NCBI GenBank assembly: GCA_019358985.1
Contig: JAHHIJ010000009.1
Span: 124,001-188,000 of the forward strand
DNA: 64,000 nt
From: Tolypothrix brevis GSE-NOS-MK-07-07A
Lineage (GTDB): Bacteria > Cyanobacteriota > Cyanobacteriia > Cyanobacteriales > Nostocaceae
Direction of reading: 5' to 3'
The notes beneath the pieces were generated by a model that was not told the origin of the DNA, made no database searches, and saw nothing but the letters and a program-made list of their open reading frames with translations. A program made the position numbers and the translations under genes. Of the stretch, positions 3,748-55,548 are shown piece by piece; the stretch's first letter is position 1, and each line of letters starts with the position of its first letter.

Positions 3748-6700
3748 TCAGCGAATTTCTGTGTTTAATACTTTCTTTACTTGAGTTAAAAAAGCTAATG
3801 AGTTAAATTCGCTTTTTCCTCTCATATGATTAAATAGGGAGAGTTTACCGACAGACTCTTCTCCGATGAGATTTTCGTAAGGATCAAGTTTGAGATAAAT
3901 GTCTTTAGAAGCTTTTTGGTATCGAGAAAAGTGGAACAAGGTCAAATATTGCAAGATGTCGTTTTTTAATGAACCGTTGAAAATCAAACCTTTCCTAATG
4001 TCTTCATCATCAAGGATGTCTTTATAAATATTTAATAAGGTTGCGTAAGAAATAACACCGTTGTAGTTTTTTTGTTCACCAGGAACGTCAATTCCATTAA
4101 ATAAGTTAAAAAATACAACAGATTGCTTGCTGGGGTCATTGACTAAATTTGTCAGTTCTATGGTATCTTGAATATATAATGAACTTGACTTGAATTTTTC
4201 TGGAAGCTTAACCGCATAGTATTTATCAAAAAACATCGGATATATCTTGATGTCTTTGTGTTCTGCTTTTAAAGCTTTAATCACATCTCTTGACATGAAA
4301 AATAATCCGTCATCCTCCTCAGTTTGAGTCATGTGCAATGTACTCGAATAAGGTGCTTTGGCAATATACAGAAAATGCTTAAATCCCATTTTGTAAAGTT
4401 TAGCTACTTCGTCAATGACAACGCTGGGATATGTAAACATTTGTTGTTTATCGTAGTTGTCTGAGAAAGTTTTAAGTAACTGCACTCTGACAGCATTATC
4501 TTGACGTCTAACTCCCATAATTTCTCCCATCAAATTGGAGATTTTTTGAGAACTATTCCATCTGCGATCGCTCTCTCGACTAGAAACTATCACAATCGCT
4601 AATTTGTCCAATTCAGGAGAGTTTGACGCATTGGTAAAGGTAAATTTTTTCGGCAAGACTGAGTATAATGAACTCAGAACATTCGGAATTTTAAATTTAC
4701 CTTTACTTTGCAAGTCTCTAATGTCAATTCCTTGTGCATTAGAACGATGTTTCTCGTTGAGTAAATGAGATAATACACAAGACAAGGACACGATAAATTT
4801 TTCTATTGGTGCATCGTCTTGCTTGTTGTTTAGATGTAGCCGAAAAATCGGGATAAATAATATCGTCTGCTTATTCAATAATATGCGAATACTGATATAA
4901 GCAAGTAAGCAAAAGGTAAAGCGATAAGCAAAAGCTTGGTGAGATTCTAGTTTATTACTTTCTAAACTGTAAGGGAACAATATCAACTTACGCTGTGTGA
5001 AATGTTGATTGTAAATCTCTTGGCATTTTTTATCTTTTAGAGGGACAAAAAGGATAGGTAAAGCACGGATACCTTTTAAATCGTACTCCATTCGGAAGGT
5101 TTCGCGGTCATCGGTAGCAAAAAAATGAATGTCGCTGATTGTAATTTTGGCTGGAAGAGTACAAAGAGAATTTGTCTGTGCTTTCGCTTCCCCAATAGAT
5201 ATATACTTGAGAACTTCTTTGGGGTTTCCTCTTAAAACAGGTTTGAAGAATGTATTGTTTTTGAAGATATTACTTTTATTGTCCTCAAGGATGCTTTTTT
5301 TCACAGAAATATGCAGGGGATATTCTCGTATCGGAAAGCTAGTCTCTCGTTTGAGGAGATTTTGCAGCAACTTCTTGAGAAGATTGATTTTTCTCTGAAC
5401 TTTGAATTCTTGAAAATATTTGTAAATCTTCCGAAAAAGCTGTTGTTTTGCAGCTTCGTCAGAACCCTTAAGAATCTGGATTACATTTTTCTCAAATCCA
5501 GCAATAGGATCGTATTCTAATTCAGCATTCAGTTTGTAATCTTTGCTTTCTGGGTTATTGCGACTGGCAAATAAAAAATAGTATAAAAACGCTATTTGTA
5601 AAACTTTTCTCGCAAATGTTTCGTTCTTAGCATCTGCGATTCCCCCTTGATGTTCCTTGGTATCTGGATTAAGCAAATTCAGACGATATTGAAAGACATT
5701 TTTACCACCATACGCTTGCACTTTACCATCAAGCTTCAGCTTCAGACCAAAGATAAATTGAATTTCTCCCCGGTTGTCATCTTTGGTTTCTCCTAAGTAA
5801 CCTTCTATGATGGGGATAATTGGCAATATTTCAAATGCTTCAGCACGAGAAAACAAATCTCTATAATTAACTGAAGTACCTGCATAGTTGACCAAGTAAT
5901 CACCATCAGCTTTGGTGGTATCGTTAATATATTCTTCTATCAGCTTTAGTCGTCTAATCAAGTCTTGCAGATATATAGCACCTTCAGTATAAGCAGCGCT
6001 AGTACCAGTATTAATATTCTCGTGGAGAAACTCCAAATAATTTATCTGTGCTTGTTTTTTGAGTTTTCCTAATGTTTGCTGATTGACAATATCCCGCAAT
6101 TTGTAAAAGTCAGAGTTAGTCTCTTTTTCCAAATCTTCAAGTATGTACTCAATATCTTCTTTCTCTCCGGCACTTGCACTACTAAATTGCTCGTGAATAT
6201 AATGTTCTAAACCTTGCTGTAATTGTCTGTTAAAATCACGCGTATTCTGCACAGTGATAGACAATTTGTGAACTTTCAAAACTTCTTTGTTCTCAGGATT
6301 TTCGCTATTGAAAGTTAACCGCTGTTTTTGTAACCCTTGATGTGGAAGAAAGGGATAGGTAAAGTCTAAACTAGGCTTATCTCCTTGAAAATTCTGCAAA
6401 TCTGTAACTAAGTTGCTTACAAACTCTTCAATTGAGGTACTATCTCCTAGTTCAGATTCTAATATCTGCTTAAGACAATCTCTTATTTTTTGAATTTGAT
6501 TGGGAAAGTTTTCTTTAAAACCTGGACTAAAGTTAACTGTAGCAGCTTTGGCGCTATTAGCAGAAACTCCTAAAGGATTGTCTACCTGCAAAGTAGCAAC
6601 TTGAGCAGCTATGCTATCAATATCGATGTGTAAATGGTTGTTATCATCAGAGATTTTAAAGACTTTTTGATCACGCAAACAATGTAAAATTTTTGATAAC

Positions 6701-6819
6701 AAATCGCTATAATCTACGTAAATTAAATCGTCGCTTCTTGCTTGAATATTATTCACCCTGTTAATTCCTAGCTTATGGTGACTATTCAGTATTAGTCTTA
6801 ATAGCCACCATAACGCCAC
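3748..6819 (-). CDS. Unrecognised 1023-residue protein paired with the helicase
   Basis: I do not recognise a family for this protein. It is soluble-looking, rich in Lys, Asn and Glu, with no clear signal peptide or membrane anchor. A middle segment (about residues 350-480) contains a beta-rich stretch followed by charged helices; the last 300 residues contain alternating strands and helices (IVIVSSRESDR, FKHFLYIAKAPYSS, IKIYPMFFDKYY) resembling a Rossmann or RNase H-like fold in secondary-structure pattern only. The start is uncertain: the longest frame begins with GTG at 6819 and no ATG follows soon. It is followed after 69 bp by the helicase gene on the same strand, which suggests co-transcription and joint function. 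Nothing visible identifies an active site, so no activity is proposed. Confidence 0.75.
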   Translation of the reverse strand: MALWWLLRLILNSHHKLGINRVNNIQARSDDLIYVDYSDLLSKILHCLRDQKVFKISDDNNHLHIDIDSIAAQVATLQVDNPLGVSANSAKAATVNFSPGFKENFPNQIQKIRDCLKQILESELGDSTSIEEFVSNLVTDLQNFQGDKPSLDFTYPFLPHQGLQKQRLTFNSENPENKEVLKVHKLSITVQNTRDFNRQLQQGLEHYIHEQFSSASAGEKEDIEYILEDLEKETNSDFYKLRDIVNQQTLGKLKKQAQINYLEFLHENINTGTSAAYTEGAIYLQDLIRRLKLIEEYINDTTKADGDYLVNYAGTSVNYRDLFSRAEAFEILPIIPIIEGYLGETKDDNRGEIQFIFGLKLKLDGKVQAYGGKNVFQYRLNLLNPDTKEHQGGIADAKNETFARKVLQIAFLYYFLFASRNNPESKDYKLNAELEYDPIAGFEKNVIQILKGSDEAAKQQLFRKIYKYFQEFKVQRKINLLKKLLQNLLKRETSFPIREYPLHISVKKSILEDNKSNIFKNNTFFKPVLRGNPKEVLKYISIGEAKAQTNSLCTLPAKITISDIHFFATDDRETFRMEYDLKGIRALPILFVPLKDKKCQEIYNQHFTQRKLILFPYSLESNKLESHQAFAYRFTFCLLAYISIRILLNKQTILFIPIFRLHLNNKQDDAPIEKFIVSLSCVLSHLLNEKHRSNAQGIDIRDLQSKGKFKIPNVLSSLYSVLPKKFTFTNASNSPELDKLAIVIVSSRESDRRWNSSQKISNLMGEIMGVRRQDNAVRVQLLKTFSDNYDKQQMFTYPSVVIDEVAKLYKMGFKHFLYIAKAPYSSTLHMTQTEEDDGLFFMSRDVIKALKAEHKDIKIYPMFFDKYYAVKLPEKFKSSSLYIQDTIELTNLVNDPSKQSVVFFNLFNGIDVPGEQKNYNGVISYATLLNIYKDILDDEDIRKGLIFNGSLKNDILQYLTLFHFSRYQKASKDIYLKLDPYENLIGEESVGKLSLFNHMRGKSEFNSLAFLTQVKKVLNTEIR

Positions 6820-7632: not shown

Positions 7633-7644
7633 TTTTTATTGAGG

Positions 7645-7779
7645 AACGGGGAATGGGCATTGGGCATGGGGCATTGGGTATGGAAAGAATCGTATTTATT
7701 CACGCATGAGCGATCTTGAACTTGTTTAATTCGAGCCTGCCCATTGCCCGTTGCCCGTTGCCCATTGCCCAATTCCCTA
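7645..7779. repeat. GGGCATT/GCCCATT heptameric repeats in the purS-purQ gap
   Basis: Short tandem heptamers of the TGGGCAT type occur at 7650-7682, and their complement CCATTGC/CCGTTGC at 7738-7775, so the gap can fold back on itself. These match the short tandemly repeated sequences known from heterocystous cyanobacteria; the same unit makes a longer array at 15091-15187. Confidence 0.65.
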
Positions 7780-8055: not shown

Positions 8056-8178
8056 AGGCTTTTGCTGAATGCTGCGATCGCTATACTATAACTTTCTGTT
8101 CCAAGTGAGTGAAAATAAGATCAAGAAGCCCTAACTTGTTGATTTATCAATTAGCCAGTAAACAGCTTTAACTACAGT

Positions 8179-8619
8179 GTCAGCACCCCGCTTGCTCAGA
8201 GACCGGGCTTTGTGCCTCCTCTGTAGATAGCTGACCCGTCTTACGTACCTCGCGTACTACGTTATCGGCAAGCGTTTAAGTTCACACCTTTGGATACGCC
8301 GCCAGTCCACTGCTCTGTAACCGAAACATTAACCAGTTCTACCAAGGGGTAAGACCGTGTGTTTTGGATAGTACCGACCGATAACATTGACTAGGCGAAC
8401 ATTACCCCGCAAGGGAGTTTACAGCGCTGCTATGCGTACAGGGCAAATAGTTCATAGTGGTAATTGTCCCACTGAAAGTACATTACAAAAGTACGCTGAA
8501 CTTAGTAGTCTCAAGGCGGTAGCAGCATCAAAAATATTCAAGGCAGTTTTAACTGCCTGAGTCGTGTTTCCTCCTATGCCGCACATGCACGCTCGTTTCC
8601 ACACTTACCAGTATTTTTT
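8179..8619 (+). ncRNA. HEARO-like structured RNA, copy 1 (no associated ORF)
   Basis: This 441-nt stretch aligns along its length with a second copy at 11835-12313. Both share blocks such as AGCTGACC, GGCAAG, GTTTAAG, GTACCGACC, ACCCCGCAAGGGAG, TATGCGTACAGGG and TGAAAGT. Helices are supported by paired changes: GTTATCGG (8261-8268) pairs with CCGATAAC (8378-8385), where copy 2 has GTTAAAGG with CCTTTAAC; TGGA/TCCA here is AGGG/CCCT there; AGTGG/CCACT is ATGG/CCAT; GTAC/GTAC is GTGC/GCAC. A terminal hairpin GGCAGTTTTAACTGCC lies at 8542-8557. The element ends exactly before ATGA, the start of zur. Size, mobility and the ATGA junction recall HEARO RNAs, the omega-RNAs of IscB elements, in an ORF-less form. 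Structure is well supported; the family name is inference. Confidence 0.65.
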
Positions 8620-9015
8620 ATGAGAGCCATACGTACCCGCAGTCAAGACCGTATCTTGAGCCTTCTGAAAACCATCAAGCAAGGCATTTCGGCACAGGAT
8701 ATTTACGTAGAACTGCGTCAACGCAACCAAAGCATGGGTTTAGCTACAGTTTACCGCTCAATGGATGCTTTAAAAATGGAAGGCATGGTGCAAGTGCGGA
8801 CATTAGCTAACGGTGAAGCCCTTTATAGCCTAGCGCAGCAAGACAAGCATCACATGACTTGCTTGCAATGCGGTACTTCAATTGGGATTAATCAATGCCC
8901 AGTCCATGATTTAGAAGAACAATTGCAAGGCACTCATAAGTTTAAGATTTTTTATCACACCTTAGAGTTTTTTGGTTTGTGCAGCCAATGCCAAATGACA
9001 CAAGCTGCGGAGTAG
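8620..9015 (+). CDS. zur: Fur-family zinc uptake regulator (Zur/FurB)
   Basis: This 131-residue protein has the Fur layout: an N-terminal winged helix (ISAQDIYVEL, then GLATVYRSMDAL as recognition helix) and a C-terminal metal-binding dimer domain with two CxxC pairs, CLQC and CSQC, plus HH and IFYHTLEFFGLC. From memory the sequence type (MRAIRTRSQ start, short C terminus) is the cyanobacterial FurB/Zur branch, which represses zinc uptake genes when zinc is replete. The ATG is part of the ATGA that borders the HEARO-like RNA, so the RNA lies directly at the 5' end of the gene, and no Shine-Dalgarno sequence other than element sequence is available. Transcription must therefore either start inside the RNA element or run through it. 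Confidence 0.9.
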   Translation: MRAIRTRSQDRILSLLKTIKQGISAQDIYVELRQRNQSMGLATVYRSMDALKMEGMVQVRTLANGEALYSLAQQDKHHMTCLQCGTSIGINQCPVHDLEEQLQGTHKFKIFYHTLEFFGLCSQCQMTQAAE

Positions 9016-9377
9016 GGGGATGGGGAGAGGGGAGGATGGGAAGCAGGGGGAGCAGGAGGAGAAAGAAGAATTATTCTCCTTGTCTCCTTGTTTCGGCTAT
9101 AATTACATGATTGAATTTTCGACTACTATTGTTTGTGGCGATCGCACAATCTCAAAGCATACTTAAGTAATTAAACTTAAATACCATTGTAAAAATAATC
9201 TATACCAAAACATGAGACTATAACCTACTCAAAACATCCAAAAAGTTTATTCGCGAGTGCGTATTGAGAAGGATAAAAAATACAACTTTTGTAAAAGATT
9301 AATTTCATCCTTCTTCAGTTGACAGCCAGATGTAATCGAATTCAGCGGTTGATTTAAACCTTTAACTTTTTAGGTGC
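9016..9377. other. Intergenic region zur to PP2C gene
   Basis: The first 75 bases are a G-rich GGGGA/GGAGGAG run followed by its partial complement TTCTCCTTGTCTCC, which can fold. The rest is AT-rich with no open frame. I see no RNA gene and no clear terminator. Confidence 0.5.
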
Positions 9378-11279
9378 ATGATTTTACAAGAGCGGATAAT
9401 TTATTGCACAAATCCCGGCTGTACTAACCCCATCAATTCTCTGGGTGAAAGCAGATTATGTGCAAGTTGTCAAACTCCTTTAATTCACCGTTATATTTGG
9501 GCTACTGGGGAACATCAAGCCATTCCACCGGGAGAATTAATAAAAGATAGATATGAGGTAATTACATCGCAAATTTGGCTGGATATTCAACCCCTCCAGG
9601 TGCCAGAGATACCCGAACAATTGCCAAAAGCAATTATTCCTTATTTACGCTTATCGAGCGATCGCTCCCATCTGCCTCAAATTTATGGATTTGCGGATGA
9701 TATACTTTTACTGGAAAATGTGCCGATAGATGAAACTGGAAATTTATATCCAGCGATCACCGACGCATGGGAACAAGCAACTCCAGTGCGACAAGTTTAC
9801 TGGCTGTGGCAAATGATTCAACTTTGGCAACCTCTATCAGAATTTGGAGTTGCCGAAAGCTTACTGTTTCCACACAACCTGCGAGTACAAGGTTGGTGCG
9901 TGCGACTCTTGGAACTTTATGAGTCAGAACAGCCGAGTCTTCAACAGTTGGGTGAATCCTGGAAACCGATTGTAGCTGTCGCTAAACCAGAAGTAGCACC
10001 AGCTTTGGAAAAAATAGTCGATTCTATGTGCCTTGAGGGTGAAATTGACTTAAAAGCGATCGCAACTCAACTCAATCAGCTATTATTATCATCAGCAGCC
10101 CAATTGCCATTAAATCTACAAGTGGCAGGGGCAACAGATAGCGGTTCCCAACAAAAGCAAAATGAAGATACTTGCTATCCCATCGCTTTTGGTAACTCAG
10201 ACGATCCCCTATTACCCCGCTTATCGATTGTTTGCGATGGTATCGGCGGACATGAGGGCGGTGAAGTCGCAAGCCAATTGGCAGTACAATCTCTGAAGTT
10301 GCAAATTCGCGCTTTACTAGCAGAAGTAGCAGAACAAACTGAACTAGTATCGCCAGAATTGTTACAGCAGCAACTAGAAGCAAGTTTGCGGGTTGTAAAT
10401 AACGTCATTTGTGCCTGCAACGACGAGCAAAAACGCCAGGGTAGGGAACGCATGGCAACAACCGTCGTTATGGCTCTACAAGTGCCGCAACAAATCAAGA
10501 TAGCTCCTGGTTCGTATTCACAAAATACTCACGAACTTTACTTAGCAAGTGTCGGTGATAGCCGCGCATACTGGATTACACGCGATTACTGCCAGCTACT
10601 GACAGTAGATGACGATGTGGCATCGCGGGAAGTACGCTTTGCCCGCAGTCTGTATCGCAAAGCACTACAACGTCCAGATGCTTATGCTCTTACCCAAGCT
10701 TTGGGAACGAAAGATGGTGAATTTCTGCGTTTTGTAATTCAGCGATTCATCTTAGAAGAAGATGGCATATTAATGCTATGTTCCGATGGACTCAGCGATC
10801 ATAATTTGGTAGAAAATCACTGGACAGAATATGCAGTACCAGTCTTAAAAGGTGAAATTTCACCAGAAGATGCGGTTGACAACTGGATTAATTTGGCAAA
10901 TCAGAAAAATGGTCATGATAATATTTCGGTTGTGCTTACCCATTGCCGTGTATCTCCAGAATACTTGGTGCCTGTAACTCCCTCCCAGCCGCTAGCCGTA
11001 ATAGAAGAAGAAGCAGAATCAGAGTTGGCAGATAGTTCTCAAGCGCTACTAGATTTAGACATTCCACCAGCCGAAGCACCTGCCGTTTCTGTAACTCCAA
11101 CTGAAGTGAAAAAACCACCTCACGGTAAGCTTTGGGTACTACTGTCCGGGGTGTTGGCGTTGCTGGCAGGAACTACAATAGGATTGTTTGCTTGGTCGCA
11201 ACTTAATCCTCAAAGATTCCAGCAAACGTGCCGGCAACTTCCTCAAAAAGTACAGCAACTCTGTCCACATGGGAAATAG
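9378..11279 (+). CDS. Zinc-ribbon PP2C-type serine/threonine phosphatase, membrane-anchored
   Basis: The 633-residue protein starts with a short zinc-ribbon-like segment (CTNPGC and CASC within the first 35 residues), followed by a 200-residue linker and a PP2C/PPM phosphatase domain. The metal-binding motifs are intact: NEDTCY near 255, VCDGIGGHEGG near 285, TTVVMAL, VGDSRAYW, CSDGLSDH and NGHDNISVV. A single membrane segment near residues 583-605 (LWVLLSGVLALLAG) is followed by a short tail, so the catalytic part should face the cytoplasm. It probably reverses Ser/Thr phosphorylation by Hanks-type kinases; no kinase gene is adjacent. It has ATG at 9378 and no operon partner. Confidence 0.9.
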   Translation: MILQERIIYCTNPGCTNPINSLGESRLCASCQTPLIHRYIWATGEHQAIPPGELIKDRYEVITSQIWLDIQPLQVPEIPEQLPKAIIPYLRLSSDRSHLPQIYGFADDILLLENVPIDETGNLYPAITDAWEQATPVRQVYWLWQMIQLWQPLSEFGVAESLLFPHNLRVQGWCVRLLELYESEQPSLQQLGESWKPIVAVAKPEVAPALEKIVDSMCLEGEIDLKAIATQLNQLLLSSAAQLPLNLQVAGATDSGSQQKQNEDTCYPIAFGNSDDPLLPRLSIVCDGIGGHEGGEVASQLAVQSLKLQIRALLAEVAEQTELVSPELLQQQLEASLRVVNNVICACNDEQKRQGRERMATTVVMALQVPQQIKIAPGSYSQNTHELYLASVGDSRAYWITRDYCQLLTVDDDVASREVRFARSLYRKALQRPDAYALTQALGTKDGEFLRFVIQRFILEEDGILMLCSDGLSDHNLVENHWTEYAVPVLKGEISPEDAVDNWINLANQKNGHDNISVVLTHCRVSPEYLVPVTPSQPLAVIEEEAESELADSSQALLDLDIPPAEAPAVSVTPTEVKKPPHGKLWVLLSGVLALLAGTTIGLFAWSQLNPQRFQQTCRQLPQKVQQLCPHGK

Positions 11280-11307
11280 GGACAAAGGTACATCTGGTAG
11301 AAAACAC

Positions 11308-11332
11308 GTAGAGACGTAGCATTGCTACGTCT
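11308..11332. repeat. Palindromic repeat, GTAGAGACG family (TAGC-type core)
   Basis: GTAGAGACGTAGC followed by ATTGCTACGTCT forms a hairpin. The copy at 51934-51958 is nearly identical and also shares the flank AATCAAGGGTTTAGG; a third copy is at 62820-62848. Confidence 0.65.
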
Positions 11333-11593
11333 AATCAAGGGTTTAGGGCAATGCATAATTAAATTCGGTCGATGTTTAATGGGGAAATATTTCTTCTATC
11401 TCAACCTTTCCCCTTCCTTCCTGCCCAGTGCCCCATTTGTTGTAAAATTAATCTTGGCGTTAAGACGCACTTAAAAAGCGTCGTCGGGTTATTCCTTTCG
11501 GATTATAAGGCAATGCTTCATAGCGATCGCGTCTGTTGGAGTTCTCGCTTTGTTTAACGAAGAGTGAAATCGAAGATAAAAAATGAGACTTCT

Positions 11594-11728
11594 TGCTAAA
11601 GTACCTGACGACTCTGATGTTGCCGTCTAATTGTTATTAAAGCCTGCACTGGCTCTTAATGATAGGCTTTCTGCGCTGACGGCAATTCCAGATTTCGGGA
11701 CTTTATTTTTATAGCAGGTACTTAAGCA
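11594..11728. other. Nested inverted repeat, possible structured RNA or miniature element
   Basis: Three nested complementary pairs lie in 135 bases: TGCTAAAGTACCTG (11594-11607) with CAGGTACTTAAGCA (11715-11728), one mismatch; TTGCCGTC (11630-11637) with GACGGCAA (11678-11685); and an inner ATTAAAGCC with GGCTCTTAAT. No open frame covers it. It could be a non-coding RNA or a miniature inverted-repeat element. I cannot assign a family. Confidence 0.45.
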
Positions 11729-11834
11729 TTAATCTTCAAAGAAAGCAAGCAGTCTATTTTGAAATCAATGTTCAGTAAAATGAGGAACGACTGTGGAGAT
11801 ACTTGTAGAAAAGCAACTAGGTGTAAATGTTAAT

Positions 11835-12313
11835 GTCAGCAACCCCGGTCTGAAGAAACGGGGCTTCTAGCCTAAAACTAGAAGTCTTCTTCAGAAATAG
11901 CTGACCAGACTAAGTACTACGAGTACTACGTTAAAGGCAAGAGTTTAAGACCTACCTGAGGGTGCGTAGCTAGCCCTCTGCTCTAGAACCGAACAATTAA
12001 ACATCTTTAAAAGGTTAAAGAAGTGTTGTTTGGAAAGTACCGACCTTTAACATTGTCGTTCGCGCAGCGTCTCCCTTTGGGAGAAGCTCACATCACCCCG
12101 CAAGGGAGGCTCGAATGAGCAAACATTATGCGTACAGGGTTGTGAAATTTGAAATGGTAACTGTCCCATTGAAAGTGCAAAACAATAGCACACCTAGTCA
12201 AACAATCCCAAGGCGATAATGGTTTCAAAATATTGAATGCGGTTAAAACCGCGATTTGCAGTTTCCCTCCCACGGCTAAAGCCAGTGGGTTTCCCACTTA
12301 ACATTTTTTTCTT
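11835..12313 (+). ncRNA. HEARO-like structured RNA, copy 2 (no associated ORF)
   Basis: This 479-nt copy aligns with 8179-8619. It begins with GTCAGCAACCCCGG and a CCCCG/CGGGG hairpin, keeps the AGCTGACC and GTACCGACC blocks, and has the long-range helix GTTAAAGG (11930-11937) with CCTTTAAC (12044-12051). A 30-odd-base insert at about 12055-12090 is a common dispersed repeat (CGTCTCCCTTTGGGAGAAG). Its 3' part has hairpins GCGGTTAAAACCGC (12239-12252) and CCCAC/GTGGG (12269-12289). It ends right before ATGA at 12314, the start of ftrV. The helices changed in both arms relative to copy 1, which argues for a conserved RNA fold. HEARO/IscB omega-RNA identity is inferred from length, junction and absence of an ORF. 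Confidence 0.65.
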
Positions 12314-12535
12314 ATGAAAATTGGCGATCGCGTCCGCGTTAAAGAATCCGTAATAATTTACCATCATCCTGAGCATCGCGGTCAGGGTTTTGACATCAAA
12401 GGATCAGAAGGGGAAGTAGTGCAAATTGCAACCGAATGGAAAGGTAAACCTATTAGCGCTAACCTGCCCTTCGTGGTACAGTTTACCAAAAAATTTAAGG
12501 CTCACTTACGCGATAATGAGTTAGAAATAATATAA
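12314..12535 (+). CDS. ftrV: Ferredoxin-thioredoxin reductase variable subunit
   Basis: The 73-residue protein matches the variable chain of ferredoxin:thioredoxin reductase: MKIGDRVRVKESV, YHHPEHRGQGFDIKG, SANLPFVVQF and a C-terminal HLRDNELEII. It has an SH3-like beta barrel and caps the catalytic FtrC subunit, which holds the [4Fe-4S] cluster and passes photosynthetic electrons to thioredoxin. No ftrC lies in the window. Its ATG begins the ATGA that borders the HEARO-like RNA, so as for zur the structured RNA occupies the immediate 5' leader and no ordinary leader remains. Confidence 0.92.
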   Translation: MKIGDRVRVKESVIIYHHPEHRGQGFDIKGSEGEVVQIATEWKGKPISANLPFVVQFTKKFKAHLRDNELEII

Positions 12536-12935: not shown

Positions 12936-14261
12936 TTAGTTATTTTCGCTTTGTAGTCGTGAGGATAATGAATTACGCTGCAACCACGCATATAGTTTTA
13001 AATGTAAAGAATCTTCTGGCTTTGGCTTGTATTCACCAGTTTGAATTTCTTCAAGAACCTTATATAAAAATGAGCTGACATCATTCTTTACCAAGTCCTC
13101 AAACATAACTAATGGTAGCAGTACGCTTTCAACTTCTACATCGTCTTCACTAAACATGATAGTTTCAAATCTAAATCTATAGCCAGACCATTTAATACTA
13201 GATAGTCTATCTACTGCATTCTGAAAATTTATTATTAGATTGTAATTCTGTGGGTTCGGATTTTTTTGTCCACGCATTATCCACCAATAAACATTGTGCC
13301 TGACAAAATACTTTCCATTTGCGTTGGTACATACCTCTACTTCCACACCGTCTACATCCAAGAACTGACGAGTCATTACTCTAGCTTCACCTTCAGGCAT
13401 TGGTTCTAATTCCTCCCAAGGTTCTACATCAACTACATTTATATGTTTCCCCTCTTGAGGTTGATAGTTATCAACAAGCTTTACCGGAATAGGATCATCC
13501 TCCAAAGCTTCTAGAGATGAAATTTCCTCTTTCTCTGGTATATTTTCTAGAAGTACTTCTAGCTGCTCTTGGCTAAAAGCCATAAACTCTACACCAGCAA
13601 TAGTCCTATGGGTGGAATTATCCATAAAATGAACTAGACCATCAAATGGCGTTAAATCTATTCTTATACCGTTATAAATTGTTTCCCAATAACCTAATTT
13701 ACCTAAGGATTTAGGGTTTGTTTGGTACTCTTTCCACTTCAAAGAACTAGCCTTTTTGTTAATACTTCTCAATACGCTCCGGATGCCACCGGATACACCG
13801 CGTCTGCCATAAACAGGGTACATTAAATATATTGTCAGTGGTTCTTCTTCAGCTACTGCGTCAAAGCCAAATATCATAGTATTGAACTTGGCTAGCTGTT
13901 GAAGGCTCTGTTGTAATGCTGTCTCTAATGGAGTTATTTTTCTAATTGGTGATACGACTTTCGACCAATTTAGAGGCGGTTTATATAACTTTATTAACTC
14001 ATTTTCGAGATGTAAAAGAGTATTTATATCGTTAGTGCAAACCATCCAGCTAATACTAATCCGGTCTTTTCTATTAAACCTTTTTAGTTGCTTAAACCTA
14101 TGGTGGTCTTTCCAGCGTTTAACTAAGTTGAGTGTTCTACCAATATAAAGCACCTGACTGCTATCAGATACGAAGTAGATGGCTGCACAATTAGGTAAAT
14201 TATCTTTGTCTAATAAATAAATTGATTGCAGTTCAGATAATTTAATTTCTTCTATTAACAT
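12936..14261 (-). CDS. GIY-YIG nuclease-domain protein with a large unassigned C-terminal region
   Basis: Residues 20-115 form a GIY-YIG domain: IYFVSDSSQVLYIG gives the two signature strands, RTLNLVKRW holds the conserved Arg, and HLENELIKLYKPPLN carries the metal-binding Glu. The remaining 320 residues are not recognised; they include an acidic segment (VEPWEELEPMPEGE). GIY-YIG domains cut or nick DNA in homing, repair and restriction enzymes; here the substrate is unknown. I choose ATG at 14261, giving 441 residues; an upstream ATG at 14303 would overlap the preceding gene by ten bases. It follows the YdcF-like gene on the same strand with 32 bp between them. The frame is AT-richer than the neighbouring genes, so transfer is possible. 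Confidence 0.75.
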   Translation of the reverse strand: MLIEEIKLSELQSIYLLDKDNLPNCAAIYFVSDSSQVLYIGRTLNLVKRWKDHHRFKQLKRFNRKDRISISWMVCTNDINTLLHLENELIKLYKPPLNWSKVVSPIRKITPLETALQQSLQQLAKFNTMIFGFDAVAEEEPLTIYLMYPVYGRRGVSGGIRSVLRSINKKASSLKWKEYQTNPKSLGKLGYWETIYNGIRIDLTPFDGLVHFMDNSTHRTIAGVEFMAFSQEQLEVLLENIPEKEEISSLEALEDDPIPVKLVDNYQPQEGKHINVVDVEPWEELEPMPEGEARVMTRQFLDVDGVEVEVCTNANGKYFVRHNVYWWIMRGQKNPNPQNYNLIINFQNAVDRLSSIKWSGYRFRFETIMFSEDDVEVESVLLPLVMFEDLVKNDVSSFLYKVLEEIQTGEYKPKPEDSLHLKLYAWLQRNSLSSRLQSENN

Positions 14262-14293
14262 CTGACTTGACAGCTTTCCTCTAAAGAGTATTC

Positions 14294-15085
14294 TCAAAGC
14301 CAACCGCGTAAACGATAGACAAGAGTACCAATGTACTCTTTTAAAGCGCTGGTAAAGTCGTGTAAATTGCCACTATCGGGAAACAAATTTAGGATAGCGG
14401 CTTTGGGAGTGTTGGCGAGTTCATTTATTTCGCCCTCACTGACGAGAAAATCAGTAGGTGCAGGAATAGCATCAATTCCTTGACGCTTAAAAATAAGTAG
14501 CGATCGCGGCATATGCATTGCCGAAGTAACTAACAATACCCGACGAATCCCACGAGCCGCAACAATTTTCTTGACATTTACAGCATTTTCATGAGTATTG
14601 AGAGAGTCAGGTTCTTGGACAATTGCCTCTTTTGGTATACCAATAGAAGTCAGAATTGTTGCCATATCCCCTGACTCTGAGGAACCGCTACCACGCCAAT
14701 CGATCCGACCACCACTGAGAATAATTATGGGGGCTTTTTTTTGGCGATAAAGTTGAGCCGCGTAAATAACGCGATCGCCTGCTTCATTTAAATCTACACC
14801 TGGACGTGGCGGAGTCGCTGATTTAGTTGCACCACCCAAAACCACAATTGCATCAGAAGGTGGTATTTCCGCAAGTGGGAGATTTTGCCATTCAAGCGAT
14901 CGCACCAAAGACTTAGAAACCCAAGCATTACCAGAAACTAGTAATATAATTAATGCGAATGCGATCGCTATCGCTGCCATGCGCGGTCTTTTCCACAGCA
15001 GAAGAAGTGAAAACAGCAACAAAATGCAAGCTAACCCTAGCGGGTAAAAAAACAGCGGTAATAACTTAGAAAGATATAAAAACAT
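14294..15085 (-). CDS. YdcF/SanA-like DUF218 membrane protein
   Basis: With ATG at 15085 the protein has 263 residues: two hydrophobic segments near the N terminus ([24 protein letters not shown] and [17 protein letters not shown]), then a DUF218 domain starting at DAIVVLGG, with [18 protein letters not shown], and [16 protein letters not shown]218 proteins (YdcF, SanA, ElyC) act at the cell envelope; the exact reaction is unsettled. The reading frame runs upstream to 15256, but that extension only translates heptamer repeats (NAQCPMP units) and should not be part of the protein. Confidence 0.85.
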
Positions 15086-15090
15086 AATAG

Positions 15091-15255
15091 GGAATGGGGC
15101 AATGGGCATTGGGCATTGGGCATTGGGCATTGGGCATTGGGCATTGGGCATTGGGCATGGGGCAATGGGCATTGGGCATTGGGCATTGGTAATAATTCTT
15201 TTCATAATCCCCAGTCCCCAGTCCCCAGTCCCTAGTCCCCAGTCCCTAGTTCCCA
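15091..15255. repeat. Heptamer tandem array GGGCATT and CCCCAGT
   Basis: From about 15091 to 15187 the unit GGGCATT repeats about a dozen times with few changes. After a short spacer, CCCCAGT/CCCTAGT units repeat from 15209 to 15255. This is a short tandemly repeated sequence of the kind known in heterocystous cyanobacteria. The period of seven is not a multiple of three, so any frame through it is incidental. Confidence 0.85.
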
Positions 15256-15259
15256 ATTA

Positions 15260-15769
15260 CTACTTTTCCCAAAACTTCAAATTGAAAGCTCCACGAGAGC
15301 GACGGAAACGACGAGTGGGTCTGCGTTTCCGTTTGGTTGCCCTTTCGTTTGAGAGTTGTCCTTGATCATCTTCTGCCTCTTCAGCAGGTAATTGAGTTTT
15401 AGTTTCTTCTGAGGCTTCCCACCAAGCAATAATCCAGCCCCCCCCTAAACCAGCTAATGCGCTCAACAAAACACTTATGGGTCCTGGATATCGCAAAACT
15501 AGAAAACCAAGTAGAAAAAATAACCAGTATTTCAATCCGGCATCAATGCCATCAGCTGAACCTAAAGTAGGGGCTTGAGGACTGGTTCTGGTTGCGGTTG
15601 TTAAGCCACCTAATGCTATACCACCCACTATCCCCAAGAAGATACTTAGGGATGATGGTGCGCCCGTCATGGAAAATATGAGTGTTAAAAATAATCCAAA
15701 GACGAGTTGAGAAAAGAAAGCTTGAGAGATGGTAATCAGACCGCCGAAGTCGTTCTTTTTTGGTGCCAT
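15260..15769 (-). CDS. Small membrane protein with basic C-terminal tail
   Basis: The 169-residue protein has three or four hydrophobic segments (LVFGLFLTLIFSM, LSIFLGIVGGIALGGL, WLFFLLGFLVL, ISVLLSALAGLGGGWIIAW) and then a cytoplasmic-looking tail, first acidic (PAEEAEDDQ) and then strongly basic (KRKRRPTRRFRRSRG). I do not recognise a named family. It starts 10 bp after the stop of the phosphotransferase/kinase gene on the same strand and is probably co-transcribed with it. Confidence 0.7.
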   Translation of the reverse strand: MAPKKNDFGGLITISQAFFSQLVFGLFLTLIFSMTGAPSSLSIFLGIVGGIALGGLTTATRTSPQAPTLGSADGIDAGLKYWLFFLLGFLVLRYPGPISVLLSALAGLGGGWIIAWWEASEETKTQLPAEEAEDDQGQLSNERATKRKRRPTRRFRRSRGAFNLKFWEK

Positions 15770-55364: not shown

Positions 55365-55435
55365 GAAGGGTGCGGCTATACGGACAAAGGCTGCCTCCGC
55401 AGCCTGTAAGGATTTCAGCCCGCGCAGGCGGGCTT
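55365..55435. repeat. Multi-hairpin dispersed repeat
   Basis: GGCTGC/GCAGCC around CTCC (55389-55404) and AGCCCGC/GCGGGCT around GCAG (55417-55434) follow a GGCTATACGGACAAA lead. This is the largest of five copies of the design seen elsewhere in the window. Confidence 0.6.
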
Positions 55436-55548
55436 CGCTTGTGTAGCCCCAGGCTTTAGCCTGTGGGCGTTTTACAGCAAGATCCCCGGATCTGATTGAC
55501 CTGATTGCCGGTTTGAGAACAAGTTGAATCCCAAATCGGAGACGAAAA

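Follow-up and report, generated by a model that had tools for sequence, protein, structure and literature searches.

HEARO elements lacking iscB directly 5' of start codons in Tolypothrix brevis and other bacteria

HEARO is the guide RNA (omega-RNA) of IscB, which is the probable ancestor of Cas9. The RNA reportedly integrates at ATGA and GTGA, an observation ascribed to Weinberg in 2009, and stand-alone omega-RNAs of Ktedonobacter are said to have been described by Altae-Tran in 2021. Non-autonomous derivatives of IS200/IS605 elements, which are MITE- or PATE-like, are inserted cleanly and without target duplication, and depend on functions supplied in trans. In one study the guide lies 5' of the scaffold, and HEARO nucleases are rarely accompanied by TnpA (PMC9755519). 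Another gives the target motif of IsrB as NTGA or NTG (PMC9581776). HEARO RNAs have also been seen in a cyanobacterial transcriptome, where they were set aside as remnants and a study of their location was called for (PMC8400943).

Two RNAs of this kind are present in a 64,000 nt stretch of the Tolypothrix brevis GSE-NOS-MK-07-07A genome (contig JAHHIJ010000009.1, positions 124,001 to 188,000; the window). Both resemble described HEARO in matching the full length of the Rfam model RF02033 over its cut-off and in having [AG]TGA directly 3' of the copy. They differ from it in lacking iscB, although the associated HNH/IscB ORF is optional for the RNA family, in bearing, beyond the 211 positions of that model, another covarying domain, itself modelled with 104 positions, and in having their junction at host start codons. 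The 5' guide position and the NTGA-type motif are shared with the IscB/IsrB OMEGA systems of IS200/IS605-like elements, and IscB/IsrB frames are found in the same genome; unlike in those systems, no linked nuclease or TnpA was found for the copies. Clean insertion without target duplication, together with a probable dependence on trans functions, recalls the non-autonomous IS200/IS605 derivatives, but the copies carry a full guide-RNA scaffold and sit in sense leaders. The occurrence of many iscB-less copies in one genome, as for the stand-alone omega-RNAs of Ktedonobacter, is seen here in Ktedonobacteria bacterium brp13.

Identity, boundaries and empty sites of the elements

Two paralogous structured RNAs with compensatory changes in four helices had been predicted at 8179-8619 and 11835-12313 of the window, with HEARO, the omega-RNA of IscB, as the suggested family. 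Both RNAs are real, all four helix pairs are present, and the coordinates agree with the element boundaries obtained from comparison with congeners. The RF02033 search (cmscan; gathering cut-off 83) matched both copies over model positions 1-211 of 211, copy 1 with 104.8 bits (8179-8405) and copy 2 with 147.5 bits (11835-12096), far beyond chance with E values of 6.3e-31 and 1.6e-20 among the two copies; the lack of a HEARO match that had been named as counting against the prediction did not occur. In the cmscan alignment, the helix GTTATCGG/CCGATAAC of copy 1 (8261/8378), which is GTTAAAGG/CCTTTAAC in copy 2 (11930/12044), and the helix TGGA/TCCA (8291/8306), which is AGGG/CCCT in copy 2 (11959/11974), lie inside consensus helices of RF02033. 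The other two, AGTGG/CCACT (8456/8469) against ATGG/CCAT (12154/12166) and GTAC/GTAC (8478/8491) against GTGC/GCAC (12175/12188), belong to a second domain outside the 211-position Rfam model.

Copy 1 (8179-8619, + strand) consists of the omega-RNA scaffold at 8179-8405 and an extra 3' RNA domain, here called D3, at 8424-8526 (93.1 bits with model R1, whose alignment includes this copy). It is followed directly by the ATGA (8620-8623) that contains the start codon of fur, as judged from the sequence and from congeners, and the Fur-family regulator frame is intact (8620-9015, +; PF01475, E 1.9e-23). Copy 2 (11835-12313, +) has its scaffold at 11835-12096 and D3 at 12120-12223 (112.9 bits with R1, whose alignment likewise includes the copy). 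It lies directly 5' of an ATGA (12314-12317) which, by the same evidence, is either the start of ftrV, the gene for the ferredoxin-thioredoxin reductase variable chain (12314-12535, +; PF02941, E 1.6e-36), or an internal methionine codon of a longer native frame. The ftrV frame of the congeners starts 16 codons earlier, and this conserved N-terminal extension, in frame with the rest, is cut off in T. brevis by the insertion of copy 2 (11787-11834). The predicted guide segments, for which a length of 16 nt was assumed, are at 8163-8178 (+), from their position 5' of HEARO nucleotide 1, and at 11819-11834 (+), where the empty sites have a nearly identical flank before ATGA.

The empty site of ftrV is clean in congeners G001 and G002, the host flank there running directly into ATGA; in T. 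brevis the same flank is followed by the element, which extends from GTCA to the base before ATGA. The fur leaders of both congeners are also without the element, and there about 21 bp that are missing from T. brevis lie between the 5' junction and ATGA. Nine more T. brevis loci have clean empty sites with small base differences in two or three congeners each (L003, L004, L009, L011, L013, L016, L018, L020 and L024), and for a further locus, L001, the comparison was with G001 alone. At ftrV and these nine loci the element has inserted cleanly at a short motif, with no target duplication; fur deviates by its 21 bp or so of flank. At the leader of a gene taken here to be apcE, a HEARO is present at the same site, about 22 nt upstream of the start, in T. 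brevis (L014) and in G003 (L410), and the site is empty in G001, G002 and G004; the flank of L014 matches, but the comparison shows that ATGA is now ATAT. The ftrV of G004 carries a HEARO at the same ATGA with about 55 bp of flank missing, and this element differs from copy 2 in sequence at both ends. HEARO is thus not conserved at orthologous leaders, the exceptions being ftrV in G004 and apcE in G003, and since at least one congener has an empty site at each T. brevis locus compared, the copies are insertions.

Since nothing of the element precedes HEARO nucleotide 1, the guide region consists of host DNA. GTCA forms the first four nucleotides in 81 of 86 copies. At 71 resolved junctions the following motif is ATGA in 54 and GTGA in 17, the junctions having been snapped to this motif. 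A longer target motif was sought, and nothing was found beyond [AG]TGA and mild A-richness after it. This target fits the NTGA or NTG motif of IsrB.

The 6.52 Mb genome contains 39 HEARO matches, 26 over the cut-off and 13 below. Zero matches were found in 14 control genomes, and 36 of the 59 genomes of the relatives search, T. brevis included, have at least one. The genome also has 10 RRXRR (IscB/IsrB) frames, and an IscB-like frame directly follows the RNA in three of the 26 over-cut-off copies (L008, L012 and L025). By the same check none follows the other 23, five of the 26 being without a resolved 3' end, and no iscB frame, linked nuclease or TnpA was found for copy 1 or copy 2. Five more RRXRR frames (L034-L038) are 349-386 aa and shorter than the three long ones, and four of them adjoin weak HEARO matches. 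Of six Y1 transposase (Y1_Tnp) domain matches, the five loci looked at have no HEARO-like ends. Both RNAs of the window are certainly mobile HEARO elements without a nuclease gene of their own, and they probably moved in trans; most T. brevis copies, being without a recognisable iscB, would need to be moved, and to serve, in trans. The further suggestion of recruitment for another role is unsupported for these two copies.

The remainder of the window encodes a 1023-aa protein without Pfam or PADLOC match (3748-6819, -) and a 455-aa protein with a GIY-YIG domain and a weak PADLOC PDC-S14 match (12936-14303, -). Intergenic tandem repeats of the ATTGGGC type are present at 7638-7779 and 15087-15260. 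A single CRISPR-DR28 match barely over the cut-off (55416-55439, -) is perhaps just a G+C-rich hairpin, and no tRNA was found in the window.

Placement of HEARO at start codons

The main sample comprised 90 copies, 30 from T. brevis and 60 from relatives, with 71 resolved and 19 unresolvable junctions. The 60 were drawn from the first 66 matches outside T. brevis in the relatives search, six being skipped, some at contig ends and some by oversight; four of these six were added later. The junction was placed where similarity between copies ceases and then snapped onto an [AG]TGA, and eleven junctions, six of them start-type, were set by eye. A junction was counted as start-type when a frame of 60 aa or more opened at the [AG]TG, which held for 35. 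L117, whose frame of 51 aa has no Pfam match, was added to these; not counted were L161, with 53 aa, and L169, which has 48 aa and lies inside a gene.

HEARO elements sit directly 5' of the start codons of ordinary genes far more often than expected by chance. Start-type junctions make up 36 of 71, and 27 of the 71 are Pfam-supported, 20 of these having a domain that starts no later than residue 15. Without the by-eye junctions the count is 30 of 60, and among over-cut-off copies (n = 86), with unresolved junctions counted as negative, it is 10 of 26 in T. brevis and 26 of 60 in relatives. The background was taken from 464 kb of the T. brevis genome with genes called by a simple custom script. 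Called starts account for 9.1% of 1565 intergenic [AG]TGA sites there, and 17.4% have an open frame of at least 60 aa; a rerun with other edges gave 10.5% starts among 1277 intergenic sites, and over all 6391 [AG]TGA sites the figures are 2.5% and 18.9%. The genes at start-type junctions include fur, ftrV, a phycobilisome protein (presumably phycocyanin alpha), rubredoxin, a response regulator, a CPP1-like protein, a TatA family member, homoserine dehydrogenase, pyridoxamine oxidase, Ycf9 and 6-phosphogluconate dehydrogenase.

The next gene is in sense at 64 of the 71 junctions, antisense at five and absent at two, with 16 of the 64 sense junctions inside a called gene, several through a frame that extends upstream of the start. 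Of the 19 T. brevis copies that have a downstream gene, none is antisense to it, compared with about 35% of intergenic sites. The start bias is strong in iscB-less copies (28 of 48) and weak in iscB-bearing copies (8 of 23; 4 of 23 Pfam-supported, P 0.15).

A conditional test within the regions hit, which took 18 of 21 T. brevis copies, put 14 of the 18 no more than 60 nt from a start, where 6.31 would be expected (P 3e-5), and nine at the start itself (4.07 expected, P 0.003); the P values given here are all too small, because the copies are related. Orientation was uninformative in this test (18 in sense, 15.33 expected), and the sense bias therefore lies in the choice of regions. The counts indicate that most of the effect is location in leaders, in regions with a downstream gene start, to which the start codon itself adds less. 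A control family of palindromic repeats in the same genome has 2 of 26 copies within 60 nt of a start. Insertion preference and selection are not separable by these placement data.

Further genomes look alike. In a later sample of 20 further loci, 13 of which had a scripted site, 7 of the 13 scripted junctions open a frame of at least 60 aa (without a Pfam scan). Scytonema sp. NIES-4073 has 61 HEARO matches, 50 of them over the cut-off. Thirty of the 61 were taken and 18 junctions were found; with two of negative score dropped, 7 of the 16 used open such a frame, six of them supported by Pfam, and two of the 16 have an antisense gene next. The seventh, L352, lacks a Pfam match and is possibly internal. 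Compared with 48 earlier junctions, the script that located these had agreed at 36, differed at eight and failed at four. Ktedonobacteria bacterium brp13, a member of the Chloroflexota by its name, has 35 matches with 14 over the cut-off. From the 30 taken, 21 ends were located by a pattern that includes a Shine-Dalgarno (SD)-like motif, most of these copies being near-identical and 16 of the 21 below the RF02033 cut-off. The motif following the 21 ends is ATGG in 17, ATGA in three and GTGG in one. A frame of at least 60 aa opens at 14 of the 21; 11 were judged to be starts, three of the 14 not being counted, and nine of the 11 have a Pfam domain, which begins within the first 15 residues in four. 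Starts are 7.5% of 1594 intergenic ATG[GA] sites in this genome, and the next gene is antisense in 2 of 21.

HEARO placement at start codons is not known to have been reported, and no such report turned up where the literature pairs HEARO or IscB with cyanobacteria, with insertion sites or with start codons, the two founding papers lying outside this scope. The observation is presented as new here.

Element ends and the additional 3' RNA domain

An SD-like tetramer is present 4-15 nt before the junction in 38 of the 71 cyanobacterial copies, compared with 84 of 710 windows inside the same elements, and in 28 of 56 distinct 16-nt termini. SD-like ends showed no association with start-type junctions (P 0.24), and the motif as a cause of start-type placement is thus unsupported. 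In brp13 the count of SD-like ends is 19 of 21; the copies are near-identical, and since the pattern used to find the ends contains the motif, this count is circular and gives no independent support. Separately determined similarity ends of the brp13 iscB-less family show AGAAAGGATTT shortly before the junction. Scans for promoters and terminators were not above shuffled sequence (6 compared with 7.7, and 2 compared with 4.6). Copy 2 has a terminator-like stem at 12284-12298, before ftrV, which could block read-through.

Many iscB-less copies bear D3, a covarying RNA domain outside RF02033. Model R1 has 104 positions and was built from 24 copies. In the T. brevis genome it is found at 18 places, all 19-29 nt downstream of a HEARO match; as 150 of 2355 first-look candidates were scored, places outside HEARO are possible. 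Among the 24 sequences, 94.8% of cells are paired and 15 of 25 pairs have changed on both sides, a result reached by 0 of 500 shuffles, with slid controls 32-39% paired; the structure was derived from the same alignment, and two pairs were added by hand. Seventeen of the 59 genomes in the relatives search carry D3. It occupies the position in iscB-less copies at which iscB begins in iscB-bearing copies; R1 had no match in the 23 of 28 iscB-bearing copies that were scored, and a motif check was negative in all 28. D3 matches no known RNA family at E values up to 5. It might cap the guide RNA at its 3' end or be bound by a trans-acting factor, both being guesses.

Proposed source of the guide RNA and alternative explanations

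Because the element starts at nucleotide 1 of the scaffold, the guide must be transcribed from outside. The guide would be host sequence, and RNA bearing it would be obtainable only from an upstream host promoter. This need for a host promoter would explain why copies lie in sense in 5' leaders, often with the [AG]TG of the target as the start codon. A sense leader would supply the promoter and [AG]TGA at the start codon would supply the target, and an SD-like motif at the 3' end of the element could let the downstream gene still be translated. IscB is predicted to spare the occupied site, since insertion has put GTCA next to the guide in place of [AG]TGA. Empty alleles would stay cleavable, which would favour element copies in a cell with multiple genomes. 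Retention through the cutting of empty alleles resembles the behaviour of TnpB.

The same placement could arise without any gain to the copy if the transposase reaches start-codon regions more easily, through single strands linked to transcription or replication. In support of this, every T. brevis locus compared is empty in at least one congener, so that the copies are recent and sorting had little time to act; the TCAT strand is however probably the template strand rather than the displaced strand of the transcription bubble, and the SD-like ends in cyanobacteria are left unexplained, so that this preference is a rather unlikely account. Slightly less credit is given to a neutral, MITE-like element that inserts at any [AG]TGA and is purged from gene interiors by selection, starts being among what is left by chance, since ATGA serves as target and as start context alike. 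In its favour, the target is no more than [AG]TGA followed by mildly A-rich sequence, ATGA is densely supplied near leaders by start codons, and, given location in a leader, the excess at the start is modest (9 compared with 4.07). Gene interiors are however already removed from the background that gives 9.1% starts against 36 of 71. Nor would neutrality predict the absence of antisense copies among the 19, when about 35% of intergenic sites are antisense, or the 14 copies within 60 nt of a start where 6.31 were expected. Another repeat of the same genome has no such bias, and brp13 shows similar placement despite targets that are mostly ATGG.

It is improbable that the copies are inert remnants without present activity, a view to which the 13 of 39 T. 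brevis matches below the cut-off lend some weight. Their structure has been kept through compensatory changes, the insertions are recent, and three IscB-like frames adjoin HEARO copies in the genome. The least probable reading is that redox and photosynthesis genes have recruited the copies as cis-regulatory leader RNAs. Genes of this type (fur, ftrV, the phycobilisome protein, rubredoxin and Ycf9) are among those hit, and four families, those of ftrV, rubredoxin, the CPP1-like protein and a PPC-domain protein, are hit in two genomes; against this, the two ftrV elements are unlike at both ends, many unrelated genes are hit, and at least one congener is empty at each T. brevis locus compared. 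The domesticated regulatory leader was set aside as the main reading on account of these empty sites.

The best explanation as a whole is that copies persist where a host promoter transcribes guide and scaffold together, to which a probability of about one half is given. It would involve transcription from the host promoter, action of IscB in trans and continued translation of the gene. A fuller version of this persistence under host promoters is possible and is put forward tentatively: the element may be a parasite that captures leaders, a promoterless mobile guide RNA that persists only under a host promoter, finds its target motif in the host start codon, is able to supply a ribosome-binding site of its own and, in the non-autonomous form, has iscB replaced by a new RNA domain. 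Each insertion would then make a guide against the empty start-codon site, amounting to RNA-guided retention at gene starts in at least two phyla.

The guide of IscB lies outside the mobile element, and it is thus fair to ask how guide RNA arises in nature. Survival chiefly downstream of host promoters, if that is the rule, would explain the transcript and predict the locations of working omega-RNAs. On that view the elements also rewrite the 5' leaders of core genes, among them fur, ftrV and those for rubredoxin, gatC and 6-phosphogluconate dehydrogenase, with most of the protein left intact.
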